A DNA stretch of 43,178 nucleotides from an uncultured Lachnospiraceae bacterium (GTDB lineage: Bacteria > Bacillota > Clostridia > Lachnospirales > Lachnospiraceae), in assembly GCA_902782995.1 (NCBI GenBank), contig CACZPJ010000011.1, forward strand, positions 1-43,178. Reading direction: 5' to 3'. Each line of letters starts with the position of its first letter. Position 1 is the stretch's first letter. The notes below the pieces were generated by a model, which saw only the letters and a list, made by a program, of their open reading frames with translations, searched no databases and was not told the DNA's origin. The translations under genes and the position numbers were made by a program. This document shows, piece after piece, positions 9,780 to 39,221 of the stretch.

Positions 9780-9880
9780 AAGCAGAGTAGGACAGTGCGC
9801 GTTAAGTGCCGGGTGAACAGGGAGTTGTCATCTGGACGAAAAGAAATATCTTGCGGTGCATTGTCCGCATCCCGCTGCTA
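9780..9880 (+). promoter_or_regulatory. Tetrahydrofolate (THF) riboswitch
   Basis: The conserved folT-type THF aptamer is clear: AGCAGAGTAG at the 5' end, GCGTTAAGTG, GGGAGTTGTC, ACGAA, TTGCGGTGCA and TTGTCCGCATCCCGCTGCT at the 3' end. The closing stem pairs 9781-9785 with 9875-9879. A second hairpin (9878-9903, CTACA/TGTAG arms) shares bases with the closing stem and lies before the AAAGGAGG of folT, so it may form part of the expression platform. THF binding is expected to reduce folT expression. Confidence 0.93.
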
Positions 9881-9931
9881 CATATAGGAATCTCTATTTG
9901 TAGTAACAGGACTGCGAAAGGAGGTTTCATT

Positions 9932-10459: not shown

Positions 10460-10488
10460 CTGACATAGTCAGATTAACAATATCATAA

Positions 10489-10577
10489 GAAAACAGGGGA
10501 GCTTGCGTAAGCAGGCTGAGAGTAAGCTGTATTGCTTAGACCCGGAACCTGATTTGGATAATGCCAACGTAGGAGTA
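10489..10577 (+). promoter_or_regulatory. TPP riboswitch (THI element)
   Basis: Aptamer core motifs in order: ACAGGGGAGC, GGCTGAGAG, GACCCGGAACCTGAT, TTGGATAATGCCAACGTAGG. They match the thiamin pyrophosphate riboswitch. It is followed 16 nt later by a perfect intrinsic terminator, so TPP is expected to cause early termination ahead of thiC. Confidence 0.96.
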
Positions 10578-10592
10578 TATGAAATGAATGAG

Positions 10593-10629
10593 ACTGCATA
10601 TATACGTTGAGTGTATATGCAGTTTTTTA
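10593..10629 (+). terminator. TPP-riboswitch-controlled terminator
   Basis: ACTGCATATATAC (10593-10605) pairs perfectly with GTATATGCAGT-type bases (10611-10623) and is followed by six T. Its place directly after the TPP aptamer makes it the likely expression platform. Confidence 0.9.
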
Positions 10630-10657
10630 TGTAATGGGAAATTGCATCCTTTTGCAT

Positions 10658-10694
10658 AAAAGCACTGCGTGCTAAGATGCGCACACTTTATTTT
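10658..10694 (+). repeat. Truncated copy of dispersed palindromic repeat
   Basis: Reads AAAAGCA, then TGCTAAGATGCGCACACTTTATT. This matches the two ends of the repeat at 16518-16617 with the middle deleted. It lies just after the TPP terminator. Confidence 0.5.
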
Positions 10695-10704
10695 AGTTTA
10701 TGGA

Positions 10705-11013
10705 ATAAGATTTTGGTATCAAAGGATATTTTTTTCGTATGTCGTATCGTATCTCTATTCTGAATTTGTGACTTATGGAGAATCTTAGATTTTCTTGATG
10801 TTCTGTAGATCTATCAGCAATGTAGCAACAGGGATGTTGCTACAAGCAAAATCCATGGCATGGATGCCATGTCTTTTGTGGTTGCGGGAAAAAAATGAAT
10901 TTTGGCAGAACATTTAGAAAATATTAGATTCGTAATTCGGAACAAATCCGGAATAGAGATAGGATATGACAAGAAAGAATCAACATAGTATCTTTTGATA
11001 CCGGAATCTTTAT
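10705..11013. repeat. MITE-like element with terminal inverted repeats before thiC
   Basis: The ends (10705-10728 and 10989-11013) are imperfect inverted repeats: GGTATCAAAGGATA on the left against GGTATCAAAAGATA on the right complement, with an extra match to ATAA-GATT outside. The inside carries two perfect hairpins, TGTAGCAACA/TGTTGCTACA (10821-10844) and CATGGCAT/ATGCCATG (10854-10871), and no gene. No target-site duplication is clear. It separates the TPP terminator from thiC and so adds about 300 nt to the thiC leader. It could instead be a structured leader RNA. Confidence 0.4.
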
Positions 11014-25239: not shown

Positions 25240-25956
25240 ATGTATCTATGGATGACTGCGGCAGTCGCCGCATATTTTATCAAGGGTCTGTGTGGATTTG
25301 CCAATACACTTGTATTTACAACGATCTTAAGCTTTGGCACACCGAATGCGGATATCTCACCGATCGATCTTTTACTGGGGTATCCGTCGAATCTGCTGCT
25401 TATCTGGAAAAACAGAAAGAGTCTGGATCCGAAGGTGTTTCTTCCACTGGCGGCACTCGTACTTGCCGGAAGTATTCCGGGTGCGCTGCTTTTGAAAAAT
25501 GTTGATACGCGCATGATCAAGCTGGTGTTCGGCGTTGTTGTGGCTGCACTTGGAGCAGAGATGATTCTGCGCGAATACAGCAGAAGAGGGGTGCGCTCAT
25601 CAAGGCTTGCCCTTGCAGTGATCGGTGTGGCATCGGGGGTGCTTTGCGGGCTGTTTGGCGTAGGTGCATTATTAGCCGCCTATGTCAGCCGCGTAACAGA
25701 AAAAAGCAGTGCGTTTAAAGCTAACATCTGTGCCGTGCTGATCGTGGATAACACATTCCGCATGATTCTTTATGGTGCATTACATATCCTCACATTGGAT
25801 GCGCTTAAGATGAGTCTTGTACTTTTTCCGTTTGGCTGCCTTGGGTTGTTTGCCGGAATGAAATGCAGCAGCAGGGTAAGTGACAAGGCAGTCCGCAGAG
25901 TCACCGCGGTTCTTCTGGTGCTTTCGGGAGTCTCGCTGATCTTAAAAAATCTGTAA
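25240..25956 (+). CDS. TSUP (TauE/SafE) family anion transporter
   Basis: 238-aa membrane protein with about seven or eight hydrophobic helices in two repeats. The family marks are the first-half GLCGFANTLVFTTIL and the second-half GVASGVLCGLFGVGALLAAYV. TSUP proteins move sulfite, sulfoacetate or other sulfur-containing or organic anions. It heads a tight operon (gaps 13, 7 and 4 nt) with an Ada/AraC protein, an HD hydrolase and a broken LysR gene, and lies 2 kb before the nitrogenase-like cluster. A sulfur role is possible but not shown by the sequence alone. Confidence 0.87.
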   Translation: MYLWMTAAVAAYFIKGLCGFANTLVFTTILSFGTPNADISPIDLLLGYPSNLLLIWKNRKSLDPKVFLPLAALVLAGSIPGALLLKNVDTRMIKLVFGVVVAALGAEMILREYSRRGVRSSRLALAVIGVASGVLCGLFGVGALLAAYVSRVTEKSSAFKANICAVLIVDNTFRMILYGALHILTLDALKMSLVLFPFGCLGLFAGMKCSSRVSDKAVRRVTAVLLVLSGVSLILKNL

Positions 25957-26537: not shown

Positions 26538-27035
26538 ATGACAATCGCACAGATTATGAAGAAAATGATTGCCTTTTCGGAGGGCAATGTACATGACATT
26601 GACCACTTTATGAAGGTATGGACGTATGCAAAGACGATCGGTGAATTAGAGCAGATCGATGAGAAGACGCAGTATATTTTGGAAGTGGCTGCGATCACGC
26701 ATGATATTGCATGTCCGTTATGCCGGGTAAAATATGGCAATACGAATGGAAAGTATCAGGAAGAAGAGGGAGGACCGTTAGTCACGGAATTTTTGTCGGA
26801 TACAGGGATGACGAAGGAGCAGATCAGCCGCGTTTCTTATCTCGTCGGACATCATCATACGCTCACAGGGATCGAAGGAATGGATTATCAGATTTTGATC
26901 GAAGCGGATTATATTGTAAATGCCACAGAAAGTGGATACAGCAGGGAGAATGTAGGGAACTTTGTGGAAAAGATCATGAAAACAGGTAGTGGAAAAGAGA
27001 TTGCAAGGGATATTTTGCTGACCAAGGAGAAATAG
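26538..27035 (+). CDS. HD-domain phosphohydrolase
   Basis: 165-aa soluble protein with the HD metal-binding pattern: VHDIDHFMKVW, then AAITHDIACPL with the HD pair, VGHHHTLTGIEG and a late Asp in IEADYIVNA. Such stand-alone HD proteins hydrolyse phosphate esters of nucleotides; the substrate is unknown. The start at 26538 follows GGAGGA by 11 nt, 7 nt after the Ada/AraC gene ends; a longer open frame from 26370 lies within that gene. Confidence 0.85.
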   Translation: MTIAQIMKKMIAFSEGNVHDIDHFMKVWTYAKTIGELEQIDEKTQYILEVAAITHDIACPLCRVKYGNTNGKYQEEEGGPLVTEFLSDTGMTKEQISRVSYLVGHHHTLTGIEGMDYQILIEADYIVNATESGYSRENVGNFVEKIMKTGSGKEIARDILLTKEK

Positions 27036-27039
27036 TTTT

Positions 27040-27806
27040 ATGACGATCTTACAATTAAAATATGTGCTTGCCATAGCAGGGGCATCTTCCATGAGGGAAG
27101 CGGCAAGTAAACTATTTGTATCGCAGCCGGCACTTTCAGCTACCATTCGTGAGTTAGAGGATGAACTTGGAATAGAAATCTTTAAGAGAAATAACAAGGG
27201 AGTCATGCTTTTGTGAATACGGTAAAAAAATTCCCTGTAAAAAAGTTTGTCTATTCCGTAAATGAGACGAGGACGGATGAAGTATTAACAAATGTAAAGA
27301 ATCTGAAAAGCGAAATCGGTGTGATCGCATATACAAGAACAAATGAAAATGTTATAAAAAAGTTATTCCGGGAATATCAATTAGATTTTTATCCGTTGAT
27401 GGTACGTGATACTTTTGTATATGTTGGAAAGGAGCATCCGTTAGCGGACAGGCAGGAAGTTTCATTAGAGGATTTGAAGGATTATCCGTGTGTAAGCTTT
27501 GATCAGAACAGTGACAATGACTTTTATTTACCGGAGGAGGCTTTGGGAGATTATAAGTTTGAAAAGCTGATCAAGTCCAACGACCGGGCAACCTCGTCAG
27601 AGATTGTAGCAAAGCTGAATGGATATTCCATAGGAACCGGTATCATGACAGAAAGTGTTACTTTAAAGGATAGCTTCGTCACGATCAAACTGACCGAAGA
27701 AGATCCGCTTACAATCGGTTATATCGTCAGAAAAAATCATAGGCTGAGTGACATTGCTGAAGTATATATAGAAGAATTGCAAAAGTATAAGGAAGAGGGA
27801 CTCTGA
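27040..27806 (+). pseudogene. Broken LysR-family regulator (internal deletion)
   Basis: Codons from ATG 27040 give a complete LysR helix-turn-helix (SSMREAASKLFVSQPALSAT, then ELEDELGIEIFKR) but stop after 58 residues at TGA 27214. In another frame, 27213-27806 encodes about 197 residues of a LysR effector domain starting NTVKKFPVKKFVYSV. The linker helix and first strand (about 50 residues or more) are missing. So a deletion not divisible by three joined the two parts at about 27205-27215. The DNA-binding piece lacks the dimerisation helix and is probably inactive. The gene ends just before the nitrogenase-like cluster, whose promoter has a LysR-type site; in an intact strain it would be the likely regulator. 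Confidence 0.85.
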
Positions 27807-27822
27807 TTGAGTTCCTCTTTTT
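27793..27822 (+). terminator. Rho-independent terminator
   Basis: AAGAGGGACTC (27793-27803) pairs with GAGTTCCTCTT (27809-27819, one G-T), followed by T. It overlaps the end of the LysR reading frame and separates it from the next cluster. Confidence 0.85.
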
Positions 27823-27840
27823 GACTGTATTGGTTCGTTA

Positions 27841-27910
27841 GTGATAAGAAAAAGTTATCACAGACAATAAAACTTGGAAAATTGTCAGAAGAGATTCTGC
27901 ATGATAATAT
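27841..27910 (+). promoter_or_regulatory. Promoter and LysR-type operator of nitrogenase-like cluster
   Basis: A perfect inverted repeat GTGATAA-N7-TTATCAC (27841-27861) contains a T-N11-A LysR-type box. Downstream lie TTGTCA (27882-27887), a 17-nt spacer and TAATAT (27905-27910). With a start near 27917 the palindrome centre is at about -66, the classic position of the LysR recognition site at activated promoters. Confidence 0.7.
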
Positions 27911-27961
27911 TTAACCAATTCAATTAAGGAGAAAAAATATCATTAAAAGGAGGTCACAGCT

Positions 27962-28897
27962 ATGAGTGAGATTAAAGAGAGCGCATTAGAGTTAATCGGA
28001 GGAACACCGATCCTGAAATTAAATGGGTACTCCAAAAAAAGAGAGATTACACAGGCAACTGTACTTGCCAAGTTAGAGTATCTGAATCCGGCAGGTTCCG
28101 TCAAGGATCGAATTGCATTGGCGATGATTGAGGATGCAGAAAAGAAGGGAACATTAAAACCGGGAGCAACCATCATTGAGCCTACCAGTGGTAATACCGG
28201 TATTGGTTTAGCGGCAGTAGCAGCAGCCAAAGGATACAAGGCTATTTTGACACTTCCGGATACCATGAGTGTAGAACGTAGAAATCTGTTGAAAGCATAT
28301 GGAGCAGAACTGGTGCTGACAGAAGGTGCAAAGGGAATGAAAGGTGCCATTGCAAAAGCAGAAGAACTCAATAAGGAAATTGAAGGTTCTGTAATTTTAG
28401 GACAGTTTGTCAATCCGGCAAATCCGAAGATCCACAAGGAAACAACAGGACCTGAGATATGGAAACAGACGGATGGTAAGGTAGATATCTTCATCGCAGG
28501 TGTAGGTACAGGCGGAACGATTACCGGAGTTGGAGAATACTTAAAGGAGCAGAATCCAAATGTTAAGATCGTGGCAGTAGAGCCGGCATCGAGTGCAGTA
28601 CTTTCTACCGGCACGCCGGGTGCACATAAGATTCAGGGAATCGGAGCAGGCTTTGTACCGGAGGTATTAAATACAAAGATATATGATGAAATCATTACGA
28701 TAGAGAATGAAGATGCATTTGCAGAAGGAAAAGCATTTGCAGTATCAGAAGGTATTCTGGTTGGTATCTCATCCGGTGCAGCACTTAAGGCAGCAGAGAT
28801 ACTTGCAAAGAGACCGGAGAATCAGGGAAAAGTAATTGTAGCCCTGCTTCCGGATTCCGGAGACCGTTACTTATCGACACCGTTGTTTAATTCATAA
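27962..28897 (+). CDS. cysK: Cysteine synthase (O-acetylserine sulfhydrylase)
   Basis: 311-aa PLP enzyme that makes cysteine from O-acetylserine and sulfide. Lys48 in [10 protein letters not shown] binds [12 protein letters not shown] forms the substrate loop; [15 protein letters not shown] binds the phosphate of PLP; GISSGAA holds the Ser near the pyridine N. Length and motifs are those of typical CysK. AAAAGGAGG precedes the ATG. It is the first gene after the promoter at 27882 and is followed 28 nt later by a YezD-like gene. Its place at the head of a nitrogenase-like operon suggests that sulfide is a product to be captured. Confidence 0.96.
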
Positions 28898-28925
28898 ACA
28901 CAGAAATCCCGGGGAGGTGGGATTG

Positions 28926-29084
28926 TTGAGCCAGGAAGCAAAAACAATCAGAGAACAGAGATCTTACCTGACAGAGGTGGAACATTATGTGAACAATATG
29001 AGGTATGGAAGTGTCACATTGATCGTACAGGATGGCAAGGTTATACAGATTGATAAGACAGAAAAAATAAGAATCAGAAACTGA
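28926..29084 (+). CDS. YezD-family small protein (DUF2292)
   Basis: 52 residues starting with TTG (28926, or the TTG just before it), after a strong GGGGAGGTGG site. It fits the DUF2292/YezD layout: an N-terminal helix, then YGSVTLIVQDGKVIQIDKTE and a basic end KIRIRN. The family is tiny and of unknown function, and members often lie next to sulfur-assimilation genes, as here, 28 nt after cysK. The TTG start and small size make it easy to miss. Confidence 0.8.
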   Translation: MSQEAKTIREQRSYLTEVEHYVNNMRYGSVTLIVQDGKVIQIDKTEKIRIRN

Positions 29085-29088
29085 CTGG

Positions 29089-29143
29089 AAAGACCAGAGG
29101 TTTTACGTGAATACATGATAAGACGTAAAATCGCTGGTCTTTT
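29089..29143 (+). terminator. Terminator-like hairpin between YezD gene and tRNA
   Basis: AAAGACCAG (29089-29097) pairs with CTGGTCTTT (29134-29142), and inside it TTTTACGT (29101-29108) with ACGTAAAA (29123-29130). Only four T follow, so it may be a partial terminator that lowers read-through into the nif-like genes, or an RNA processing site. Confidence 0.5.
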
Positions 29144-29176
29144 GTTATGAAAGATGAAAAGAAATCATAAAAACAG

Positions 29177-29246
29177 GATGCCGTAGCCGCTGGAATGGCA
29201 TAGGTCTGCAAAGCTGAAGTTGGTGGTTCGAGTCCGCCCGGTATCG
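29177..29246 (+). tRNA. Aberrant tRNA-Cys(GCA)-like gene inside the cluster
   Basis: The acceptor arms 29177-29183 and 29239-29245 pair over 7 bp (one G-T). The D arm starts GCC and ends GGC with GG in the loop. The anticodon loop CTGCAAA gives GCA (29208-29210). The T stem GGTGG/CCGCC closes a canonical TTCGAGT loop. The run GTAGCC...GGC-A-TAGGTCTGCAAA resembles clostridial tRNA-Cys. Two things are wrong for a normal tRNA-Cys: the anticodon stem (TAGGT with GCTGA) has a mismatch and two G-T pairs, and the discriminator is G29246, not the U73 that cysteinyl-tRNA synthetase needs. No CCA is encoded. It may be a decayed tRNA or a specialised tRNA-like RNA. Confidence 0.7.
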
Positions 29247-29294
29247 TTAACGACTGTGGAAGGTCGTATATAGAAGTAAGAAAGCAGGTGACAT

Positions 29295-30167
29295 ATGAGT
29301 AATACATACAAGGATTTGCAGAATTCCCATCCATGCTTTGGAGGACAAAAAAATAATGCCGGAAGGATTCATCTGCCGGTCAGTCCGGGTTGTAACATTG
29401 CCTGCAGGTTTTGTGATCGTACCTTAAATGATGTTGAGGAAAGACCCGGTGTTACATCGAAGCTTCTAAAGCCGGAGGAATGTGAAGATATATTAAGAAA
29501 AGCGTTAAAGATCTGTCCGGATATTAAGGTGGCAGGGATAGCCGGACCGGGAGATACGCTTGCATCCGATAATGCATTGAAGACCTTTGAGATCGTAAAA
29601 GAGAAGTTCCCGGATCTGATCAAGTGTATGAGTACCAATGGACTGCTGCTGAATGAAAGGGCAGAGGATGTGATCCGTGTAGGGATTGATTCACTGACAG
29701 TTACGGTCAATGCCGTAGATCCGGAAATTGAGAATCAGTTAAATGCTTATATCATCTATCATGGGAAAAAAATAGAAGGTGTGGAGGGTGCGAAGATCTT
29801 AATTGAAAACCAGCTGGCAGGAATACGGAAGGTTGCTGCAGCAGGGATCACGATCAAGGTCAATACCGTTCTGGTTCCGGAGATCAATGGGGAGCATATA
29901 GAAGAAATAGCGAAAACAGTAAAAGAGGCTGGTGCAAGTATCTATAATATCATTCCATTGATTCCACAGCACGAATTAAAGAATTATCAGGCACCGACCT
30001 GTGCGCAGATCGATCAGGCAAGGACGAGGGCATCAAAATATATAGATGTATTCCGCCATTGCCAGCACTGCCGGGCAGATGCCGTCGGTGTACCAGGTAA
30101 ATCAGAATTCGGTGATCAGATCTATCAGCGCAGACTGAAGGTAAAGGAGACATTTTCACATGGATAG
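29295..30167 (+). CDS. nifB: NifB: radical-SAM cofactor maturase
   Basis: 290-aa radical-SAM protein that fuses two [4Fe-4S] clusters and inserts a carbide to give NifB-co, the precursor of nitrogenase cofactors. SHPCF (His12, Cys14), the SAM-cluster motif CNIACRFC (Cys33, 37, 40), GIAGPGD, Cys111 in KCMSTNGL and RHCQHCRADAVG (Cys256, 259) are all present, i.e. the full set of NifB cluster ligands. The C-terminal NifX-like domain of long NifB is absent; a separate NifX-like gene overlaps its end. It is preceded by the tRNA-Cys-like gene. Its presence means the downstream D/K proteins probably use a NifB-derived cofactor, unlike DPOR or CfbCD. Confidence 0.93.
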   Translation: MSNTYKDLQNSHPCFGGQKNNAGRIHLPVSPGCNIACRFCDRTLNDVEERPGVTSKLLKPEECEDILRKALKICPDIKVAGIAGPGDTLASDNALKTFEIVKEKFPDLIKCMSTNGLLLNERAEDVIRVGIDSLTVTVNAVDPEIENQLNAYIIYHGKKIEGVEGAKILIENQLAGIRKVAAAGITIKVNTVLVPEINGEHIEEIAKTVKEAGASIYNIIPLIPQHELKNYQAPTCAQIDQARTRASKYIDVFRHCQHCRADAVGVPGKSEFGDQIYQRRLKVKETFSHG

Positions 30168-30531
30168 TCAGGAATACAGGGTAGCAGTGGCATCCAGCGA
30201 TGGAATTGTAGTGAATAATCATTTTGGAAGAGCCAGAGACTTCTACATCTATCAGGTGGATCATACGGAACAAATTCATTTTCAGGAGAAAAGGAGTGTA
30301 ATACCGGTATGTGATGGCGGTAACCATGATGATGATAAATTAGAAGAAAATATAAAAAAGCTGCAGGACTGTAATTATCTGCTGGTGAGCAGGATTGGCG
30401 GCGGGGCAGCAGCCATGGCAGAACGCTATGGAATAGAAAGTTATGAGATACCGGGGCTGATCCCTGATTCAATCGGACAGCTAACCAGGTACATTAAAAT
30501 AAAAAAATTATTTGAAGATCAGAAAGGATAA
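30160..30531 (+). CDS. NifX/NafY-like iron cofactor-binding protein 1
   Basis: 123-aa protein of the dinitrogenase iron-molybdenum cofactor family. The N-terminal VAVASSDGIVVNNHFGRARDF is the family signature, and GGGAAAMAERYGIESYE follows near the end. Such proteins carry NifB-co or finished cofactor between NifB and the apo-enzyme. The start overlaps nifB by 8 nt, and the NifH-like gene begins 3 nt after its stop, so the three are translationally linked. Confidence 0.9.
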   Translation: MDSQEYRVAVASSDGIVVNNHFGRARDFYIYQVDHTEQIHFQEKRSVIPVCDGGNHDDDKLEENIKKLQDCNYLLVSRIGGGAAAMAERYGIESYEIPGLIPDSIGQLTRYIKIKKLFEDQKG

Positions 30532-31383
<852 letters not shown>

Positions 31384-31396
31384 GGAGGTACAGATT

Positions 31397-32392
31397 ATGG
31401 GAATCAGTAAATCGATTGCAGAATTAGTCGGAAAAACGCCTTTACTGGAATTAAGCAATTATGAAAAAAAGCATAATCTGGAGGCAAGAATTCTGGTAAA
31501 GCTGGAGTATTTCAATCCGAATCAGAGCGTGAAGGACAGGATTGCGCTGGCAATGGTGGAGGATGCCGAAAGAAAGGGATTATTAAAACCCGGATATACC
31601 ATTGTAGAAACTACCAGCGGAAACACCGGAATCGGTCTTGCAGCGATTGCAGCAAGCAAGGGATATAAATTCCGTGTATACATACAGGATCAGGTCAGCG
31701 AAGAACGCTTTAAGGTAATCCGGGCATTCGGAGGAGAGACGATCAAGCTTTCCGAGGAACCGGCGGTAGCAAAGACCTTAGAAGAGACCGGTGGAGATTT
31801 TGTAGCTGCAATTCAGGCGTTAAAGGAACAGGTGTTAGATAAAGAAAAGGATATATTCTTTGTAGATCAGTGTTCAAATCCTGCAAATCCAGCCATTCAT
31901 GAAGCGACTACCGGACCGGAGATATGGCAGGATGCAGAAGGAAATGTGGATATCTTTGTGGCAAATGTGGGAACGGGTGGAACAATATCCGGTACGGGAA
32001 AGTACTTAAAGAGTAAAAATCCGGAACTGAAGATCATTGCCATCCAGCCGGGAGAAAATTCACTGCCAAGTGAAGCAAATCCGGCACCGGAAGAAATAAC
32101 CGGAGTACATCCGTTTGAAGGAATACCGAAGGAACGTGTACCATCCACGATGAATCTGGACATCTACGACGAAAAGTTTGAGGTAGAGACCATAGAGGCA
32201 TACCGGGCAGCAAGGGAAGTGGCAAAAACAGATGGTATTTTGATCGGAACCTCATCCGGAGCAGCCATTTATGCAGCAACAGAAGTAGCAAAACGCCCGG
32301 AAAACAGAGGAAAGACAATCGTTGCTGTTTTGCCGGATACCGGTCTTCGGTATCTTTCTACAAAGCTGTTTGAGGAAGAATATCAGGGATAG
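31397..32392 (+). CDS. Second, divergent cysteine-synthase-family PLP enzyme
   Basis: 331 aa, fold-type II. PLP Lys46 ([11 protein letters not shown]), [23 protein letters not shown] and GTSSGAA are kept, so it is an active beta-replacement enzyme. It differs from the first cysK product (311 aa): the segment after YKFRVYIQDQVSEERFKV has an insertion of about 20 residues, and the substrate-side stretch reads GVHPFEGIPKERVPS where CysK has [12 protein letters not shown]. The acceptor or the sulfur nucleophile may therefore differ (sulfide, a thiol, or an activated serine). It lies between the NifH-like and NifD-like genes, with 13- and 11-nt gaps. Confidence 0.9.
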   Translation: MGISKSIAELVGKTPLLELSNYEKKHNLEARILVKLEYFNPNQSVKDRIALAMVEDAERKGLLKPGYTIVETTSGNTGIGLAAIAASKGYKFRVYIQDQVSEERFKVIRAFGGETIKLSEEPAVAKTLEETGGDFVAAIQALKEQVLDKEKDIFFVDQCSNPANPAIHEATTGPEIWQDAEGNVDIFVANVGTGGTISGTGKYLKSKNPELKIIAIQPGENSLPSEANPAPEEITGVHPFEGIPKERVPSTMNLDIYDEKFEVETIEAYRAAREVAKTDGILIGTSSGAAIYAATEVAKRPENRGKTIVAVLPDTGLRYLSTKLFEEEYQG

Positions 32393-32403
32393 GAGAGTGT
32401 GAG

Positions 32404-33870
32404 ATGCCAGTTAATTTATCCAATTCAAATGTAGCAACCAGAGAGAACCGAATCGGTTCCATTACCGGCTATGTCGGAACCTTAAAAGATTTAGCAACAC
32501 AGAGTGAATGTGGAACGTTAAAAGGCTGTTCCAGATGCTTTTCACAATCAAGTACCTGTCTGTCCATGTGTGGATTATCGCAGTTGGCAGGAATCCGTGA
32601 TGTGGCAATCATCCACCATGGTCCGGCAGGCTGTTCCGTAACCGGTGCAAACTCCTACTATATGTCAAAAGTAATGGCAAAAAAGAGGGGCGTTACCAGT
32701 GATACTGTTTATGTCGGAACAGATATGAATGAAAATGATACGATTTTTGGTTCTACGGAGAAGCTGAGAAGCATTATTTTAGATGTCAATAAGAGATATA
32801 AGCCAAAAGCGATCTTTGTGTCAAGCTCCTGTGCCACCGGTATTATTGGTGAAGATATTGACAGTATCGTAGATGAAGTCAGGGACGAAGTAGGTGTACC
32901 GATTGTGGCAGTACATTGTGAAGGCTTTAAGTCGAGAATCTGGGCAACCGGTTTTGACATCTCTGATCATGCAATCCTGCAGGAAATCGTAAAGCCACCG
33001 CGGGAAGGGGTTAAGACCAACAAGATCAATTTTAAGAATTTTTATGAAAGTGCGAGACCTGAGATCATTGAAATGTTTGCGGAATTCGATCTCGAACCGG
33101 TATTTTTATATTGCAATGCTACGATCGAAGAACTGTCGCATCTTTCGGAAAGTATTGCAACGACATGTATCTGTGGTACGCTGGGCAATTATCTTGGGAA
33201 TGCGCTCGAAGAAAAATATGGTGTTCCATATGTCAGAAGTATTAACCAGTGTGGAATCACCGGATTTGAGACATGGCTGCGGGAAATTGGCAAAGTGACC
33301 GGACGCAGTGAGAAAATAGAGCATTATATTGCAGAGCAGCGGAAAATTTATCTCCCACAGATCGAAGAGATCAAAAAGGAACTGAAAGGACTTACGGCAG
33401 TGCTTGGTATGGGTCCCGGCTATACCTTTGAGGTATCAAGAGTGTTAGATGAGCTTGGTATCAAGGTCGTATGGGCACTCGCATGGCATTACGATAAAAA
33501 GTACGAAAATGGAGATGTCCCACCTTCCATGAAATATTTATTAGATCACGATATAGATTTTGAAGCCAGTGTTGCGGATCAGCAGAATTACGAGGTCATG
33601 AATATTTTAAATAAATATAAGCCGGATATGTATCTGTCGCGTCATCCGGGTTCTACGGTATGGGCAATTAAGAATGGAACACCGGCAATTTATGTCGCAG
33701 ATGAATATATGATCTTTGGATATAAACATACGCTGGAGTTTGCAAAGACGATCCTGGATGCAATTCGTAACCGCAGCTTTGAAGAAAATCTGGCAAAGCG
33801 TTCGAAGCTTCCATACACAGACTGGTGGTATCAGCAGAATGTGGATACATTCCTAGAGGAGGCGAAGTAA
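32404..33870 (+). CDS. NifD-like alpha subunit 1 (nitrogenase component 1 family)
   Basis: 488 aa. Three P-cluster-type cysteines are present with nitrogenase spacing: Cys52, Cys77 (HHGPAGCS) and Cys143 (SSSCATGIIGEDI). Cys257, 12 residues before the EEKYG motif, corresponds to the cofactor ligand Cys275 of MoFe protein. At the His442 position it has Tyr430 (GTPAIYVADE), so the second ligand is lost. The N-terminus has four extra Cys: 36, 42, 45 and 56. Downstream NifK-like 1 starts one base after its stop. It is either a catalytic subunit with altered cofactor binding or an assembly scaffold. Confidence 0.9.
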   Translation: MPVNLSNSNVATRENRIGSITGYVGTLKDLATQSECGTLKGCSRCFSQSSTCLSMCGLSQLAGIRDVAIIHHGPAGCSVTGANSYYMSKVMAKKRGVTSDTVYVGTDMNENDTIFGSTEKLRSIILDVNKRYKPKAIFVSSSCATGIIGEDIDSIVDEVRDEVGVPIVAVHCEGFKSRIWATGFDISDHAILQEIVKPPREGVKTNKINFKNFYESARPEIIEMFAEFDLEPVFLYCNATIEELSHLSESIATTCICGTLGNYLGNALEEKYGVPYVRSINQCGITGFETWLREIGKVTGRSEKIEHYIAEQRKIYLPQIEEIKKELKGLTAVLGMGPGYTFEVSRVLDELGIKVVWALAWHYDKKYENGDVPPSMKYLLDHDIDFEASVADQQNYEVMNILNKYKPDMYLSRHPGSTVWAIKNGTPAIYVADEYMIFGYKHTLEFAKTILDAIRNRSFEENLAKRSKLPYTDWWYQQNVDTFLEEAK

Positions 33871-35169
33871 ATGGCAAAACTTTTAGACAAACAAAGATAT
33901 AAATGTGCGCTTGGTGCAATGCAGACCGTTCAGGCAATCGAGCATGCACTCCCAATTCTTCATTCAGGACCGGGCTGTGCGCAAAAGCTTTCGGAAAGTA
34001 CAGGAAGTTCCGGATACTTTTCCCCAAACATTTTTCCTTGTACCAGTATCAATGAAAAGGATGTGGTATTTGGTGGAGTAAAGAAGTTAAATTCTACGAT
34101 CGAGAATGCATTAAAGGTCATTGATGCAGATCTTTATATCGTTCTTACCGGATGTATCCCGGAGATTGTAGGGGATGATTCCGGGGAGGTGGTATCTCGG
34201 TTTCAGGAGGCAGATAAGCCGGTCATCTATGCACCGACGGCAGGTTTTAAAGGTAATAATTATAAGGGACATGAACAGGTCGTTGACGCGATCATTACCC
34301 AGTATCTGAAAAAGTCAGACCATACGGAAAAAGGGCTTGTAAATATCTGGGCGGATGTTCCTTATCAGGATCTGTTCTGGCTGGGAAATATCAGGGAACT
34401 GGAGAAACTGATCCGTGAGCTGGGACTTACACCAAATACGATTTTTGGATTCCACCGGGGAATAGACAATATTAACAAAATCCCGGAAGCAGAATTTAAT
34501 CTGTTGGTATCTCCATGGGTAGGTCTTGGAAATATGAAGAAAATGGAGCAGAAGTTTGGCATTCCATACCTGCATTATCCGACGCTTCCGATTGGTGCAA
34601 CGGAGACAAGTAAGTTCTTAAGAGCCGTAGGTGAATTCGCAGGGGTTGCAAAGGATAAGGTAGAATCCGTAATCAGGGAGCACGAGGACTATTATTACTA
34701 TCTGATTGAACGGTATGCAGATCTGTTTCTGGAAAATCGTGTAATCAATAAGCAGTTTTCTGTTATTGCAGATGCCCAGTATGCATTGGGTATTACCAAG
34801 TTCCTGGTCAATGATCTTGGGCTTGTTCCGGCAAAACAGTTTGTTGTGGATGATACACCGAAAAGCTACAGAGACCGGATCATAGAAGAATTCCGGCAGC
34901 TTAATTTCGGGCTGGAGGCAGAAGTGTCCTTTGAAACGGATGGCTATAAGATCCATGAGGAGATCAGACAGCATGATTATCATGGTTATCCACTGATTCT
35001 TGGCGGATATTATGAAAAAAAGGTCAGTGAGGAGCTGAAAGGAAACTTCTTAAATATTTCATGGCCGGTACAGGATAAGGTGGTCTTAGATGACTTTTAC
35101 GTGGGATATACAGGAGGTATCCGGTTAATTGAAGATATTTATACAGTAGCGGTACAGAGATTTAATTAA
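33871..35169 (+). CDS. NifK-like beta subunit 1
   Basis: 432 aa. It keeps the three P-cluster cysteines of a K subunit: Cys12, Cys36 (HSGPGCAQ) and Cys95 (LTGCIPEIVGDD). NEKDVVFGGVKKL is the usual region between them. It starts directly after the stop of NifD-like 1, with GAGGCGAAGTAA as the site. It forms the heterodimer with that subunit, so an [8Fe-7S]-type P-cluster with six Cys ligands is expected at the interface. Confidence 0.9.
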   Translation: MAKLLDKQRYKCALGAMQTVQAIEHALPILHSGPGCAQKLSESTGSSGYFSPNIFPCTSINEKDVVFGGVKKLNSTIENALKVIDADLYIVLTGCIPEIVGDDSGEVVSRFQEADKPVIYAPTAGFKGNNYKGHEQVVDAIITQYLKKSDHTEKGLVNIWADVPYQDLFWLGNIRELEKLIRELGLTPNTIFGFHRGIDNINKIPEAEFNLLVSPWVGLGNMKKMEQKFGIPYLHYPTLPIGATETSKFLRAVGEFAGVAKDKVESVIREHEDYYYYLIERYADLFLENRVINKQFSVIADAQYALGITKFLVNDLGLVPAKQFVVDDTPKSYRDRIIEEFRQLNFGLEAEVSFETDGYKIHEEIRQHDYHGYPLILGGYYEKKVSEELKGNFLNISWPVQDKVVLDDFYVGYTGGIRLIEDIYTVAVQRFN

Positions 35170-35183
35170 AAGAGAAAAAAACT

Positions 35184-35213
35184 GCCTGTGGGTCTTTGCA
35201 AAAAGCCACAGGC
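35184..35213 (+). other. Hairpin inside the operon
   Basis: GCCTGTGG (35184-35191) pairs with CCACAGGC (35206-35213). The tail TGTTGTTGT is not a good T run, so this is more likely an RNA stabilising or processing element than a terminator. It splits the cluster into a first and a second D/K half. Confidence 0.5.
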
Positions 35214-35239
35214 TGTTGTTGTAGACGGAAGGTGATGAT

Positions 35240-35677
35240 TTGGGTTATAAGATTGCAGTTGGTTCATCTGACGGGGTGAATGTCGATTTAAAGTTTGGCG
35301 AGGTAACAAGATTTCTGATCTATGAAGTGACGGATGAGATCCGGTTGACAGAAGAAAGAATTGTTACGGCTGATGTGGCAGATCAGACGCAGAAGCAGGA
35401 AGCATGTAAGGATACAGGCTGTGGGAACGGCTGTAGTGGAAACGGAAGTGGCTGCAGCGGATCTTCCGATGTTCTTTCAAAAGTATCATTGATTGAAGAT
35501 TGCAGATGCGTAGTGTGTAAAAAAATAGGATTTCAGGCACAAAAGCAGTTTGAGAAAAAGGCGATTTCAGTATTTGACGTAGAGTGTGGAATCGAGGATG
35601 CCTTGGAGAAAATTACGTTTTATTACAATAAAATAGATAAGCATGAGTCGCTTTATGCAGGAAGGAAAGAAAAATAA
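35240..35677 (+). CDS. NifX/NafY-like protein 2 with Cys-rich insertion
   Basis: 145 aa, of the iron-molybdenum cofactor-binding family: YKIAVGSSDGVNVDLKFGEV at the start and a GFQAQKQFEKKAISVF segment near the end. Between them (residues 50-80) is a Gly/Ser/Cys-rich insertion with Cys 56, 61, 65 and 72, followed by Cys 88, 90 and 93, enough to bind a metal or Fe-S cluster. The start is TTG (35240) after GGAAGGTGATGA. The next gene begins 1 nt after its stop. It may be the carrier or chaperone for NifD-like 2. Confidence 0.85.
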   Translation: MGYKIAVGSSDGVNVDLKFGEVTRFLIYEVTDEIRLTEERIVTADVADQTQKQEACKDTGCGNGCSGNGSGCSGSSDVLSKVSLIEDCRCVVCKKIGFQAQKQFEKKAISVFDVECGIEDALEKITFYYNKIDKHESLYAGRKEK

Positions 35678-35678
35678 T

Positions 35679-37133
35679 ATGGCGAATATACAGTATTCCG
35701 GGGTGCGGGAAAGCAGACCGGGAAGAGTCAATGATCTGGGAACAACTGGAAAAGAAGCTGCGGAAAACTATAAAAAGGGCTGTCTGAAAAGGGCAGACAG
35801 AAGCTTTGCGCAGGGACTGCAATGCCAGCAGATCAACAGTATGGCAGCATTGATGTCGCTGGAGGATTCTGTTTTTATTTCACATTCTCCACAGGGGTGT
35901 GTAGGATGTGCGATTATGGCAGTAGACATGTATCGTGTGGGACAGATCCACAGAGGAATCCGGAATGTTAAGAACCCACGTCTTCTGGTAACGAATATTG
36001 ATCAGAAAAGTGTGGTATTCGGTGGCGAGACAAAATTAAGACAGACGGTAAAGCTGGCTGTCGAGCGTTATCATCCGAAAATGGCATTTATCTATGCATC
36101 CTGTGCATCCGGTATTATCGGAGACGATATAGATGCGATCGCAGCTGACTTACAGGCAGAGTACCCAGATACAATTATGATACCGATCCATTGTGAAGGC
36201 TTTAAATCAAAGATCTGTGCATCTGGATTTGATGCTGCATTTATTTCGATCAATAAGTATATATTGAAAAAACAGCAGGTGGAAAAACAAAAGGGACTGA
36301 TCAATCTGTTTGCACCAACGACAGTCAGTTATGCGGATCAGAAGGAAATGGAGCGGATGTTAAAGCTGATCGGTGCAGAAGTCAATTACATCCCATTTTA
36401 TAGTTCGCTGGAAAAGATTAAGCGTATTCCGGCAGCAGAGGCTTCTACATCTATCTGCAAGGTATTTGCAGATGAATTTATGAAAACATTATGGGAAGAT
36501 TATCAGATTCCATATTCCCATACAGTGATGCCGATCGGAATCCGCAATACGGATAAGTGGTATCGTGGAATTGCAAAAGTGCTAGGAAAAGAGACAGAGG
36601 TAGAGACGATCATTGCAGAAGAACATAAGAGAATAGAACCACTGGTAGCAGAGCTGAAGAAAAGATTAGAGGGAAAGCGGGTTTTTATCTGTGGTGGTAC
36701 AGGCCGTTCGTTTGCAGCGGCAGCATTGATTGATGATTTTGGGATGGAGCTTGTCGGTTTGGAGACGCCTACCTATGATGAGAATGCGCAGACAGATATT
36801 GAATATCTGAATGACATCCACAAGAATTATGTAGTGGATATTGCCAATATGCAGCCGTTTGAACAGGTAAATCTGTTACATAAATTAAAACCGGATGCTT
36901 TTATCGGTGTTCCGGAATGGGCTGCAAGACTGGGAATTCCAACAACACACGTATTAGATGGAAAAAGACCGACGATGGGATATGACGGATTACTGTTTCT
37001 GGGAAACAAGATTGCAGATCAGTTAGAGAATCCGGGATTCAATAAAAAGCTGGCAAAACATACCAGACTGCCATATAAAGATACGTGGTATCAGGAAGAT
37101 GCCTTTAAATATATTGAGAAGGGAGGAAAATAA
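35679..37133 (+). CDS. NifD-like alpha subunit 2
   Basis: 484 aa. P-cluster cysteines Cys49, Cys74 (SPQGCVGC) and Cys142 (ASCASGIIGDD) are kept. Cys260 (STSIC) falls 12 residues before the WEDY that replaces EEKY, so it matches the cofactor ligand Cys275. His424 (GIPTTHVLDG) lies ten residues before the GYDG motif, exactly where His442 lies before GFDG. Thus both cofactor ligands of MoFe-type nitrogenase are conserved, making this the better candidate for the catalytic subunit. ATG 35679 has AAGGAAAG about 10 nt upstream; a frame start at 35643 within the previous gene has none. Confidence 0.9.
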   Translation: MANIQYSGVRESRPGRVNDLGTTGKEAAENYKKGCLKRADRSFAQGLQCQQINSMAALMSLEDSVFISHSPQGCVGCAIMAVDMYRVGQIHRGIRNVKNPRLLVTNIDQKSVVFGGETKLRQTVKLAVERYHPKMAFIYASCASGIIGDDIDAIAADLQAEYPDTIMIPIHCEGFKSKICASGFDAAFISINKYILKKQQVEKQKGLINLFAPTTVSYADQKEMERMLKLIGAEVNYIPFYSSLEKIKRIPAAEASTSICKVFADEFMKTLWEDYQIPYSHTVMPIGIRNTDKWYRGIAKVLGKETEVETIIAEEHKRIEPLVAELKKRLEGKRVFICGGTGRSFAAAALIDDFGMELVGLETPTYDENAQTDIEYLNDIHKNYVVDIANMQPFEQVNLLHKLKPDAFIGVPEWAARLGIPTTHVLDGKRPTMGYDGLLFLGNKIADQLENPGFNKKLAKHTRLPYKDTWYQEDAFKYIEKGGK

Positions 37134-37134
37134 G

Positions 37135-38424
37135 ATGTCACAGATTATGGAAAATCCAAAGGGTGGATGTGTGCTGGCTGGAATCAATGCTGTCTTAGGT
37201 GCAATCGATAAGGTTTGTCCGATTTATCATTCAGGACCTGGCTGTTGTATGCAGACAACAGCAGCGGATCAGGGACAGTCCGGACATAAAAGCTCCTGTT
37301 TTGTCAGCAGTGTGTCAATCCCTTCCAGTAATATGCTTGAAAAAGAAGTGGTATTTGGCGGTATCAATAAGCTGCGGACAACGATACAGGGCGCGGTTGA
37401 TATTATGGATGCGGATGCATATTTTGTGCTTACCGGCTGTACAGCGGGAATTATCGGAGATGATATTGTAAGTGTTACCAATGAATTTAAGGAGCAGGGC
37501 TATCCGGTATATCCGATTGAAACACCGGGATTTGCAGGAGACAGTAATCTGGGGTATGAAACAGTCTGGAATACGTTTCTGGATCAGGTCATTGAACACG
37601 ATGTACCAAAGGATGAGAAGCTGGTAAATATATTCGGAATCGTTCCATATCACGATCCATTCTGGAGTGGAACCTTAGAGGAAATTGACCGGATTCTTTC
37701 GAAGCTTGGTCTAAAGGTAAACACATTCTTTACAAAGCATCAGAATATAGAAGATATACGGAAATGCTCTGCTGCGGCGTTAAATATCATTGTCAATCCG
37801 TGGCTTTTTCAGGGACCGGCAAAAAAGTTCGAGGAAAAATTCAATGTTCCGAGTATCCGTATACCGGGACTGTTTATTGGTGCAACGGATACAACCAGGT
37901 TTCTCAGGACGGTTGCCGATGCCTTAAAGCTTGATGAACGTATTGTGGAGGCTGTGATCAGGGAGGAAGAAGATTATGTGTACAGCTATCTGGGACAGGC
38001 AATCGGTGTCGTAAGCTGGAAGCGTTTTGCGGTTGTGGCAGATGCAGGTAATGCTGTGGGATTCTGCCGTTACCTGGCAAATGACTACAGCTTTACACCG
38101 GTGCTTGTCATTATTTCCGAACCGATATTCCGTCAGGAGGACAAGGAACGGATCATAAAGGAAATACAGGACTTAGAGTATGCAGCACCGCCAAAAGTCC
38201 TGTTTCTTACAGATCAATACGAGATTAATAAGGCAATACGGGAGGAGGAGAAAGAGATTACGCTGCTGGTTGGCAGCAGTAATGAACGTGAAATAGCACT
38301 GGAAAAGGATATACAGTTTATATTGGGAGCTTTTCCGATGAATGAGCGACTGGTATTTAATCGTACTTATGCAGGATATAGGGGAAGTCTGACGTTTACC
38401 GAAGATATTTACGATAATAATTAG
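37135..38424 (+). CDS. NifK-like beta subunit 2
   Basis: 429 aa. Cys12, Cys37 (HSGPGCC) and Cys102 (LTGCTAGIIGDD) match the three P-cluster ligands; Cys28, Cys38 and Cys55 are extra. EKEVVFGGINKL is the common K-subunit segment. The start at 37135 follows GGGAGG, one base after the stop of NifD-like 2, showing that the two are made together. It is the last gene of the cluster; no clear terminator follows. Confidence 0.9.
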   Translation: MSQIMENPKGGCVLAGINAVLGAIDKVCPIYHSGPGCCMQTTAADQGQSGHKSSCFVSSVSIPSSNMLEKEVVFGGINKLRTTIQGAVDIMDADAYFVLTGCTAGIIGDDIVSVTNEFKEQGYPVYPIETPGFAGDSNLGYETVWNTFLDQVIEHDVPKDEKLVNIFGIVPYHDPFWSGTLEEIDRILSKLGLKVNTFFTKHQNIEDIRKCSAAALNIIVNPWLFQGPAKKFEEKFNVPSIRIPGLFIGATDTTRFLRTVADALKLDERIVEAVIREEEDYVYSYLGQAIGVVSWKRFAVVADAGNAVGFCRYLANDYSFTPVLVIISEPIFRQEDKERIIKEIQDLEYAAPPKVLFLTDQYEINKAIREEEKEITLLVGSSNEREIALEKDIQFILGAFPMNERLVFNRTYAGYRGSLTFTEDIYDNN

Positions 38425-38429
38425 GATAA

Positions 38430-38463
38430 AAACCGGTATCTTACAAGAAGGTGAGATTGCAAA
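38430..38463 (+). repeat. Direct repeat copy A (decayed BceR-like operator)
   Basis: 34 bp, AAACCGGTATCTTACAAGAA followed by GGTGAGATTGCAAA. It matches copy B (39138-39171) at 32 of 34 positions. The two changes break the CTTACA-N4-TGTAAG palindrome here. Copies A and B flank the mazEF module. Confidence 0.75.
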
Positions 38464-38493
38464 AAATAGTTTGCGGTCAGATTGATATATGTT

Positions 38494-38528
38494 TTCAAAT
38501 AGTATATACTAAGTATATACTATTTGAA
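38494..38528 (+). promoter_or_regulatory. Palindromic operator/promoter of mazEF
   Basis: Perfect 15-bp inverted repeat TTCAAATAGTATATA-CTAAG-TATATACTATTTGAA that ends just before the AAAGGAGA site of mazE. It contains a TATACT -10 candidate (38505-38510). MazE-type antitoxins repress their own promoters through such sites. Confidence 0.75.
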
Positions 38529-38540
38529 AGGAGAAACGGT

Positions 38541-38783
38541 ATGCAGGCACAGATAAAAGAATGGGGCAACAGTCAGGGAATCCGGCTGCCAAAGGAAATA
38601 TTAAAGGATGCAGGAATTTCATTAAATGATGTTTTAGAAGTCACTGTGTTAAATGGTGTAATTATGCTGGCAAAACCATTTCGCCATAAAACATTAGAAG
38701 AGAGAGCAAAGGAGTTTGACGGAAAGCTTATGCTCGATGGTGAGTATGTGTGGGGTGAACCGGTTGGAAGAGAGGTATGGTAA
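38541..38783 (+). CDS. mazE: MazE-type antitoxin (AbrB fold)
   Basis: 80 residues. The N-terminal MQAQIKEWGNSQGIRLPKEI is the MazE/AbrB swapped-hairpin DNA-binding domain; the C-terminal tail (EERAKEFDGKLM to VWGEP) would bind the toxin. AAAGGAGA lies before the ATG and a perfect palindrome upstream. The stop overlaps the first base of mazF. The antitoxin is intact although its toxin is not. Confidence 0.92.
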   Translation: MQAQIKEWGNSQGIRLPKEILKDAGISLNDVLEVTVLNGVIMLAKPFRHKTLEERAKEFDGKLMLDGEYVWGEPVGREVW

Positions 38784-39084
38784 TGGATTTTGTGCATCAG
38801 GGTGATATTTTAAAAATAGAGAAATACAGCATCCGGTATTAGTCGCAAGTAAAGATTTCTTCAATACCAGTGGTGAAATAATCGGATGTCCTATTTTTAA
38901 GAATTCAACCCCCGGACCTCTTCATATATGGACATCAGCCGGGAATACAGAAGGATATATTCAGTGTGAAAAGCTTGCATTATTAGATTTATCTGTCCGT
39001 GGTCATAAAAAGATAGATCATTTACCTATTTCTGAAATGATGAATATATCGGATGCGATTCAGGGAATTTTCGAATATGTGTAA
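38783..39084 (+). pseudogene. mazF: MazF-type toxin, frameshifted
   Basis: The start codon overlaps the mazE stop. The frame reads MDFVHQGDILKIEK and then stops at about 38840. One frame over the MazF sequence continues with QHPVLVASKDFFNTSG, the segment with TPGPLHI and the end IQGIFEYV (stop at 39082-39084). One base is missing at GAGAAATACAG (about 38820-38828). MazF is an RNase that cuts mRNA; only a 19-residue piece can be made. A sequencing error in the short A run cannot be excluded. Confidence 0.85.
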
Positions 39085-39137
39085 GGTGATTGCTAGGATC
39101 ACAGATGCGGATAAAATAGATTATCTGTAAACAATCG

Positions 39138-39221
39138 AAACCGGTATCTTACAAGAATGTAAGATTGCAAAGGAAAATGTAAGCCAAATCGATGGCTTGC
39201 ATTTTTTTTTTTTGTTATCAT
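39138..39221 (+). promoter_or_regulatory. BceR-like double operator and promoter of the ABC transporter
   Basis: Copy B of the direct repeat (39138-39171) holds a perfect palindrome ATCTTACA-AGAA-TGTAAGAT (39146-39165), which fits TnACA-N4-TGTAA of BceR-type regulators. A second TGTAAG starts 20 nt after the first (39178), followed by CCAAATCGATGG. TATCAT at 39216-39221, 38 nt from the second half-site, is the -10 candidate. The layout is the same as at 12474-12547. A long T run lies between operator and -10, and no good -35 box is seen, as expected for an activated promoter. Confidence 0.75.

Follow-up and report, generated by a model that had tools for sequence, protein, structure and literature searches.

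A group of nitrogenase-like genes in an uncultured Lachnospiraceae bacterium of rumen-type gut origin is likely to encode an inducible sulfur-scavenging system, in which reductases with a NifB-type cofactor would cleave C-S bonds for sulfur assimilation. The genes lie on contig CACZPJ010000011.1 of assembly GCA_902782995.1, of which positions 1 to 43,178 were analysed (here called the window). Between positions 27962 and 38424 of the plus strand they comprise nifB, two NifX-like genes, nifH, two cysK-family genes and two complete D/K pairs, and just before nifB lies a small RNA that resembles tRNA-Cys and, judging from a comparison of its relatives, is probably a cis-regulatory leader imitating that tRNA. 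The RNA is the newest and the most directly testable part of the analysis.

The operon and its genes

The order on the plus strand is cysK1, DUF2292, a hairpin, the tRNA-Cys-like RNA, nifB, nifX1, nifH, cysK2, D1, K1, nifX2, D2 and K2. The arrangement is not one of chance, since many other genomes have nearly this order of genes. An earlier note, made from this DNA alone, had described NifB, two NifX-like proteins, NifH, two cysK-family genes and two D/K pairs, and all of these are present on that strand. Its gene list and coordinates are right, except that D2 and K2 probably begin 36 nucleotides (nt) inside their open frames; it overlooked the DUF2292 gene (28926-29084), the hairpin (29084-29147) and the tRNA-Cys-like RNA (29177-29246). 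The residues it had singled out are likewise in place by motif or alignment, namely the cluster ligands of NifB, Cys97 and Cys132 of NifH, and all of the P-cluster cysteines.

The nifB gene (29295-30167) encodes the radical-SAM domain only. The protein aligns to positions 9-279 of the 441 in model TIGR01290, which includes a C-terminal NifX-like part, and scores 264.2 bits, below the cut-off of 343.65. Six fingerprint motifs define NifB in a published survey (PMC5715403), and the window protein has all six (HPC, Cx3Cx2C, ExRP, AGPG, TxTxN and Cx2CRxDAxG). Two genes encode NifX-like cofactor carriers, nifX1 (30160-30531; PF02579, 66.7 bits) and nifX2 (35240-35677; PF02579, 45.4 bits), the latter with a Cys-rich stretch. 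The NifH-like reductase (30535-31383) passes TIGR01287 (465.7 bits against a cut-off of 394.35) and has a P-loop along with the two cysteines mentioned above.

The product of cysK1 (27962-28897) is assigned as cysteine synthase A, with 451.7 bits against the TIGR01139 cut-off of 350.95 and the SVKDR, TSGNTG and GTGGT motifs. The second gene of the family, cysK2 (31397-32392), lies directly before D1 and is divergent: it matches PF00291 and keeps the catalytic motifs, misses both the CysK and the CysKM cut-offs (TIGR01139, 319.9 against 350.95; TIGR01136, 333.9 against 344.15), and has about a dozen additional residues, at roughly 115-145, relative to a solved cysteine synthase. CysK2 may use another thiol. 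The 52-residue yezD/DUF2292 protein (28926-29084) scores above the cut-off for PF10055 (65.1 bits) and below that for the OscA model NF033785 (31.8 bits against 85), which suggests a distant kinship to OscA, a protein of the sulfur starvation response.

The D/K pairs and their kinship to Mar

The four D/K genes are D1 (32404-33870), K1 (33871-35169), D2 (35679-37133) and K2 (37135-38424), the last two with starts placed at inner methionines of frames that open at 35643 and 37099. No other PF00148 match was found in the window's assembly, which consists of 2.26 Mb in 182 contigs, the window being one of them, and is rated 83.8% complete. All four miss the Nif, Vnf and Anf subunit cut-offs (D1 reaches at best 166.6 against 486.05). 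Among solved structures, each subunit finds methylthio-alkane reductase (Mar) first: D1 matches MarD at 315 bits (next molecule 122) and K1 matches MarK at 370 (next 89), while D2 matches MarD at 242 (next 102) and K2 matches MarK at 234 (next 106).

The metal ligands tell the two pairs apart. The P-cluster of Mar is held by MarD Cys66, Cys91 and Cys158 and MarK Cys32, Cys56 and Cys121, and its [Fe8S9C] cluster by Cys270 and His429, the latter in a Mar-specific loop (PMC12552129). Residues C52, C77, C143, C257 and H414 of D1 correspond to MarD C66, C91, C158, C270 and H429, and all five ligands are present in 104 of 104 D1-clade rows of a homologue alignment. D2 retains the four cysteines (C61, C86, C154 and C272), as do 28 of 28 D2-clade rows; the loop that would carry the His429 equivalent is shortened and the histidine absent, both in window D2 and in all 28 rows. 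The three K-side P-cluster cysteines are kept in 102 of 102 K1 rows and 24 of 24 K2 rows, so that the P-cluster cysteines are complete in all four window proteins; the rows counted here are not all independent, as two genome sets overlap. Because all of the Mar cluster ligands are retained, D1K1 appears capable of holding the cofactor set of Mar. Together with the full NifB and the P-cluster cysteines, the ligands in D1 bear out the NifB-type cofactor that the earlier note had proposed.

Quick maximum-likelihood trees were built from sets thinned at 85% identity (51 of 163 D rows and 65 of 158 K rows), with the Shimodaira-Hasegawa-like approximate likelihood ratio test (SH-aLRT) as the only support measure; the references were R. 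rubrum (Rhodospirillum rubrum) Mar and NGR234 Nif only, leaving out Isr, Vnf, Anf, Bch and Cfb. D1 groups with the Mar-type D proteins in a clade (SH-aLRT 97) that divides into a Mar side with R. rubrum MarD and Mar-like proteins (98) and a D1 side (93, or 96 without the long-branch row of genome G067), and the D2 clade (99) falls outside both. In the K tree K1 (98), the Mar-type proteins (91) and the K2 side (99) are separate, in unresolved branching order. These trees place D1 as sister to the Mar clade and D2K2 in a clade of its own, and neither pair falls inside the clade of R. rubrum Mar, the one characterised reference, in keeping with the view of the earlier note.

Genome G322, from the same family, carries a MarDK pair (locus L126, 5901-8829) that is 54-58% identical to R. 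rubrum Mar (57.5% for MarD), and a window-type D1K1 operon lies elsewhere in the genome. Mar and a window-type D1 can therefore coexist.

Are the two D/K pairs one machine? The two pairs lie together in G226, G016, G136 and G312 and on different contigs in G054, G338, G156, G341 and G120, and a D2 of more than 60% identity occurs within the examined stretch at 17 of 80 named D1 loci. Moreover, G215 and G380, each rated 99% complete, have D1 with no D2 orthologue among the best three first-look candidates scored, and in G205 (94% complete) a D2-like protein was found and no D1. Considering these genomes, D1K1 and D2K2 are, as far as gene content can tell, separable enzymes able to share NifB and NifH, and the earlier treatment of the two pairs as a single system does not hold for an obligate one.

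Sulfur genes around D1

A neighbourhood survey covered the best 80 of at least 550 named relatives of window D1. The first labelled gene immediately before D1 belongs to the cysK family in 63 of the 80 loci and is nifH in 14; fifteen of those 63 cysK-family genes are more distant, being 40-44% identical to window cysK1 or cysK2. Counting the whole examined stretch, 69 of the 80 loci have a cysK-family gene. Other neighbours were assigned by scanning one representative of each recurrent cluster. A PatB C-S lyase, NifS, clostridial NifU and an Rrf2 regulator score above their cut-offs and LysR is assigned by Pfam, and CysE, SsuA, MetQ and cystathionine-gamma family members fall below their equivalog cut-offs. 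This linkage supports the sulfur reading of the operon well, and with DUF2292 it agrees with the assimilation toward cysteine that had been suggested at the outset. The link to cysteine synthase has a precedent: Cys275-bearing NifDK-like genes linked to cysteine synthase or O-acetylhomoserine (OAH) sulfhydrylase were in print by 2012 (Dos Santos et al., PMC3464626).

The hosts of the D1 relatives include rumen Lachnospiraceae, Lachnobacterium bovis, Butyrivibrio, Ruminococcus flavefaciens, Treponema, Lacrimispora, Propionispira arboris and metagenome-assembled genomes (MAGs) of Bacteroidales; no relative of D1 was found in viral contigs. The Bacteroidales proteins are up to 88% identical to window D1, which reflects either transfer between phyla or, in part, binning error. 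In Treponema saccharophilum the gene set is borne on a plasmid, pTS2 (L188), which has an OAH/cysteine-synthase-family gene, cysK, a NifB-type radical SAM gene, NifX, NifH and LysR, along with two D/K pairs, one D1-like and the other Mar-like, that are separated by an ABC transporter set.

What the operon may do

In the model that we favour, NifB would build an [Fe8S9C]-type cluster, as its motifs suggest, and the NifX-like proteins would carry it, as expected of their family. The ATP-driven NifH-like reductase would power both D1K1 and D2K2, since the operon has a single nifH. For D1K1, kinship to Mar and the ligands suggest reductive cleavage of a C-S bond, in the manner of Mar, at an [Fe8S9C] cluster held by Cys and His; with less assurance, D2K2 might be a second, differently ligated reductase acting on another substrate. 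The linkage to cysK suggests that CysK1 and CysK2 would fix the released sulfide (or thiol), mainly into cysteine. Finally, DUF2292, the terminator-type attenuator and the tRNA-Cys-like leader may tie expression to sulfur or cysteine status, a prediction of inducibility based on their position and conservation. Conceivably, the two reductases might work one after the other, a thiol being freed first and then sulfide and a hydrocarbon such as methane.

Several points weigh against this model. Mar releases methanethiol, and CysK is not known to turn methanethiol into cysteine in one step. The cysK linkage that the earlier note wished to see surveyed is common and not universal, so that its absence from related genomes, which the note had named as a refutation, is seen in part: 11 of the 80 D1 loci are without cysK in the stretch examined, including those of Lacrimispora, Konateibacter and Ruminiclostridium hungatei, and the full 9 kb upstream was covered in six of the 11. 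Several more distant Mar-like clusters also have no cysK nearby. The OscA, SsuA, MetQ, CysE and CymR families all score below equivalog cut-offs. Lastly, D2K2 has a P-cluster site and a Cys ligand in place, but the identity of its cofactor appears uncertain because no second ligand was identified in D2.

Perhaps the operon is simply a Mar system, in which methylthio compounds would yield methanethiol through D1K1, and this thiol, not sulfide, would be taken up along S-methylcysteine or methionine routes by the CysK-family enzymes and neighbouring C-S lyases. Every Mar metal ligand is kept in D1, and genes for PatB-type C-S lyase and the cystathionine-gamma family often adjoin the cluster. We nevertheless think this rather unlikely, in view of the position of D1 outside the Mar clade, the presence of both Mar and a window-type D1 in G322, and the fact that the gene most often fixed beside D1 is of the cysK family.

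Two further alternatives are both quite improbable. In one, D2K2 is no catalyst but a scaffold of the NifEN type, on which the cofactor destined for D1K1 would mature. D2 is without the Mar histidine ligand, as is NifE of NGR234 at that column, and linked four-gene D/K sets have been proposed to consist of scaffold and enzyme (PMC3464626). K2 keeps all of its P-cluster cysteines, however, unlike NifN, which in NGR234 has lost two of the three K-side residues; Mar holds [Fe8S9C] itself (PMC12552129); and the separability of the pairs, with D1 lacking D2 in G215 and G380 and the reverse in G205, further weakens the scaffold idea.

The other alternative is a sulfonate reductase like Isr, which would release sulfite from a sulfonate imported by an SsuABC-like transporter. 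Genes for an SsuA-like binding protein, a permease and an ATPase adjoin several clusters, and pTS2 has its ABC transporter set between the D/K pairs. Yet the transporter type differs between loci (MetQ-like or amino-acid-type), and IsrD is described as having one P-cluster cysteine and no Cys275 equivalent, with an IsrB that is not NifB-like (PMC11423573). D1 and D2 keep all of these cysteines and the window has NifB, so that identity with Isr was rejected on residues and the B protein, not by tree.

Ordinary nitrogen fixation, which NifH, NifB and the P-cluster cysteines might bring to mind, can be dismissed almost entirely, since the D/K scores are far below the nif, vnf and anf cut-offs, all four PF00148 genes found are taken up by D1K1 and D2K2, and the neighbours are sulfur genes.

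A tRNA-Cys-like RNA before sulfur genes

ARAGORN calls a tRNA-Cys(GCA) at 29177-29246 on the plus strand, 48 nt before nifB, and the RNA ('tRNA-CysV') passes the Rfam tRNA model at 38.2 bits. RNAs of this form have a 7 bp acceptor stem, A or G at position 73 and a 4-nt variable region. The window copy has discriminator G73 and an A.G mismatch in the anticodon stem, and the CCA end is not encoded.

A first covariance model, made from seven copies, gave at least 87 bits in 16 of 397 genomes of the same family, with one more at 60.3 and no other above 53.5. With a second model, seven further genomes reached 70 bits or more among 391 genomes of the class and 392 of the order; five matches just below these (56-61 bits) proved on inspection to be ordinary U73 tRNA-Cys. 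Because the scans with these models (R1 and R2) scored 12 first-look candidates per genome, the counts are lower bounds.

The set analysed comprises 41 loci and 36 distinct sequences, two ordinary tRNAs of L249 being left out. Base 73 is A in 18 of the distinct copies, G in 18 and U in none, and CCA is encoded after it in two. The anticodon is GCA in 34, ACA in one and GAA in one, and the cloverleaf is complete by comparison; the second anticodon-stem position is an A.G mismatch in every copy, and C33 occurs in five of the 36. Nine RNAs stand outside this set, the odd ones of G312 and G191 and seven later ones (G723, G1066, G1039, G977, G920, G1079 and G1077), and all nine have A73 or G73 when read by eye. 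Among the 31 sequences used to assess pairing, standard pairs make up 99.7% of pair cells, and eight of 19 pairs have changes in both partners, more than in any of 500 shuffles or any slide.

What follows the RNA was tabulated for 49 copies (the 41 loci, G312, G191 and six of the later ones, G723 being left out); neither the 41 nor the 49 are all independent, as the genome sets overlap, and G173/L192, G156/L209 and G120/L224 appear to be the same assemblies. A gene-like frame on the same strand opens an estimated 12-147 nt downstream in 48 of the 49. It is nifB in 36, yezD in five and, by BLAST, cysK, nifS and nifH in one each; by eye, single copies precede metK, a JAMM-like, a peptidase-like and an HD-domain gene. 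The remaining copy comes after cysK1 and is followed only by a doubtful 76-residue frame. Since 25 copies came from loci chosen for D1, nifB is over-represented here; among copies from the genome scans, 12 of 23 precede nifB.

Does such an RNA decode? In four genomes of one genus (G977, G920, G1079 and G1077), the anticodon loop has given way to a GGCA tetraloop, carried on a stem that is longer and compensated, and the RNA therefore cannot be a decoder there. G197, from the same genus, retains the loop. The tetraloop copies (L357, L358, L359 and L360) lie upstream of yezD-metK, and their extended stem covaries.

The RNA might still be an ordinary or specialised tRNA-Cys isoacceptor that is co-transcribed with sulfur genes. 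The GCA anticodon of nearly all copies, the full cloverleaf, the score against the Rfam model and the two copies with CCA after position 73 fit this explanation, as does the window's own incomplete assembly, where the RNA is the only tRNA-Cys found. Two observations tell against a non-translational leader: the window RNA, folded by itself, does not take up the cloverleaf at minimum energy (z -1.66), and tRNA-Cys with G73 or A73 is known in some methanogens, together with a changed cysteinyl-tRNA synthetase (CysRS; PMC8762117). The minimum-energy fold is a cloverleaf for two of the tetraloop copies, and nearly so for G197. On the other side, U73 is found in none of the 36 distinct and nine further copies and in all nine canonical tRNA-Cys genes, which came from eight of ten host genomes searched. 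A single cysS scored above the cut-off in each of 12 genomes searched, ten of them RNA-bearing, with no second CysRS above the cut-off in any of the 12. With the invariant A.G mismatch, the occasional C33, the tetraloop copies and the position of the RNA just before a gene start, these results make an isoacceptor rather unlikely; a trans-acting RNA is a further, less favoured reading.

Returning to the leader, a more specific proposal can be offered tentatively, as one possible account. The RNA would represent a new class of cis-acting leader that mimics tRNA-Cys and stands at the front of sulfur operons, among them nitrogenase-like, yezD-metK and cysK/encapsulin-type ones; it would compete with real tRNA-Cys for CysRS, the ribosome or another reader of tRNA-Cys and so couple the operons to cysteine supply, and the operon that it controls in the window would run two reductases acting on C-S substrates. 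A literature search found no recognised description of such an RNA or of the operon's function, its coverage being partial and absence from print thus not shown.

A role as partner of Cys T-boxes was also considered. T-boxes with specifier UGC and bulge UGGA were seen by eye in four of eight stretches upstream of cysS (G000, G322, G054 and G320), and a wider T-box scan covered six genomes. The RNA was rejected as their partner because a UGGA bulge fits U73 tRNA-Cys and not this RNA.

Some loci deserve separate mention. At L185 the tRNA-Cys-like RNA, and at L187 a diverged relative of it, precede what look by eye like JAMM protease, MoaD/ThiF and family-2 encapsulin shell genes; L185 has in addition a cysK-like gene (by eye) and a NifS-family gene, and the set is apparently a sulfur-storage operon. 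In G312 an odd tRNA-Cys with A73 and a weak anticodon stem (L120, 1750-1820) is followed about 40 nt later by a NifS-family gene that lies downstream of the cluster, and no tRNA-Cys-like RNA was found before nifB in that genome. At L184 of G197, the tRNA-like RNA is followed by NifH, K, SsuABC-like and metK genes together with a D gene whose protein has an Isr-like cysteine pattern (the Cys91 equivalent only).

An attenuator-like hairpin

Upstream of the RNA, at 29084-29147 on the plus strand, a small YYGG..CCRG hairpin overlaps the 5' arm of a strong T-tailed hairpin (-27.0 kcal/mol, z -6.4). The motif YYGG-loop-CCRG-AGGT occurs 54 times in 140 loci, and in 39 of these the CCRG arm doubles as the 5' arm of a T-tailed hairpin, an overlap seen zero times in reversed and zero to two times in block-shuffled sequence; the pattern was derived from some of the loci counted, and the 39 matches are not all independent. 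The overlapping element is present in the window and 35 further loci. The next labelled gene is nifB for 24 of the 39 and cysK1, cysK2, D1, nifH or an SsuA-like or other binding-protein gene for nine. The other six have no labelled gene within 700 nt, and include the window copy, which lies before nifB but outside the label table. The element resembles a transcription attenuator, and is a candidate sulfur-regulon attenuator. A consensus scan of 27000-39200 did no better than shuffles (promoters, 30 against 29.7; terminators, 10 against 8.9), and the long hairpin escaped it, having been spotted by eye and then folded.

Other features of the window

A LysR-family regulator gene (27040-27806, plus strand) lies ahead of cysK1 and appears broken in this assembly, with a stop after about 58 codons and the rest, which matches PF03466, in another frame; elsewhere, intact LysR genes adjoin cysK1. 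Further upstream, at 25240-25956, is a membrane protein of the TauE/SafE (sulfite exporter) family. A tetrahydrofolate (THF) riboswitch, a thiamine pyrophosphate (TPP) riboswitch and a TwoAYGGAY RNA all lie within about 1.2 kb at 9781-10938. After K2, a small MazE-like gene is flanked by a near-repeat that starts 'accggtatcttacaagaa', at about 38433 and 39140.

Significance and comparison with known systems

With D1K1 and D2K2, the short list made up of the nitrogenases and Mar would gain two uncharacterised clades of putative NifB-cofactor enzymes, which are seen in rumen and gut assemblies of Bacillota, Spirochaetota and Bacteroidota. If the model is true, the known range of [Fe8S9C] cluster chemistry would widen, and the possible products (sulfide, thiols and small hydrocarbons such as methane) would matter for gas and sulfur cycling in the rumen. 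The tRNA-Cys-like RNA, for its part, would offer a small and testable regulatory element whose presence flags sulfur operons and so can lead to others.

The closest known system is Mar (MarBHDK of R. rubrum; PDB 9FMG, PMC12552129), which shares with the window a NifB-type maturase, a NifH-type reductase, the P-cluster cysteines and a role in sulfur metabolism, and with D1 the Cys270/His429 ligands of [Fe8S9C]. Unlike Mar, the window has cysteine-synthase linkage, two D/K pairs and a tRNA-like RNA; D1 and D2 fall outside the Mar clade, and D2 has no His429. Isr (IsrBHDK of Rhodobacter capsulatus; PMC11423573) is likewise a nitrogenase-like operon for anaerobic assimilation of organic sulfur. 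The window system is not Isr, because Isr is described there with a single D-side P-cluster cysteine, no Cys275 and an unrelated B protein, whereas the window has all of the cysteines and NifB. The gene sets of PMC3464626 share the cysteine-synthase linkage and the four-gene D/K arrangement, and no function or RNA element is described for them in the available part of that paper. NifEN resembles D2K2 in being a second D/K-like pair without a histidine at the Mar ligand column of D, but K2 keeps its three P-cluster cysteines and D2K2 occurs independently of D1K1.

Tracing the RNA to known leaders, the E. coli thrS operator has a tRNA fold. The yjdF riboswitch is another leader with such a fold (as cited in PMC11477304), and both place a tRNA-shaped RNA before a gene. 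Unlike them, the window RNA mimics tRNA-Cys (GCA) and its relatives precede several different sulfur genes. The selC* tRNA-Cys (PMC7609411) is also an odd tRNA-Cys of anaerobes, but it is described there with U73 and an 8/4 form, in contrast to the 7 bp acceptor stem, A/G73 and 4-nt variable region of the RNA that stands before nifB in the window.

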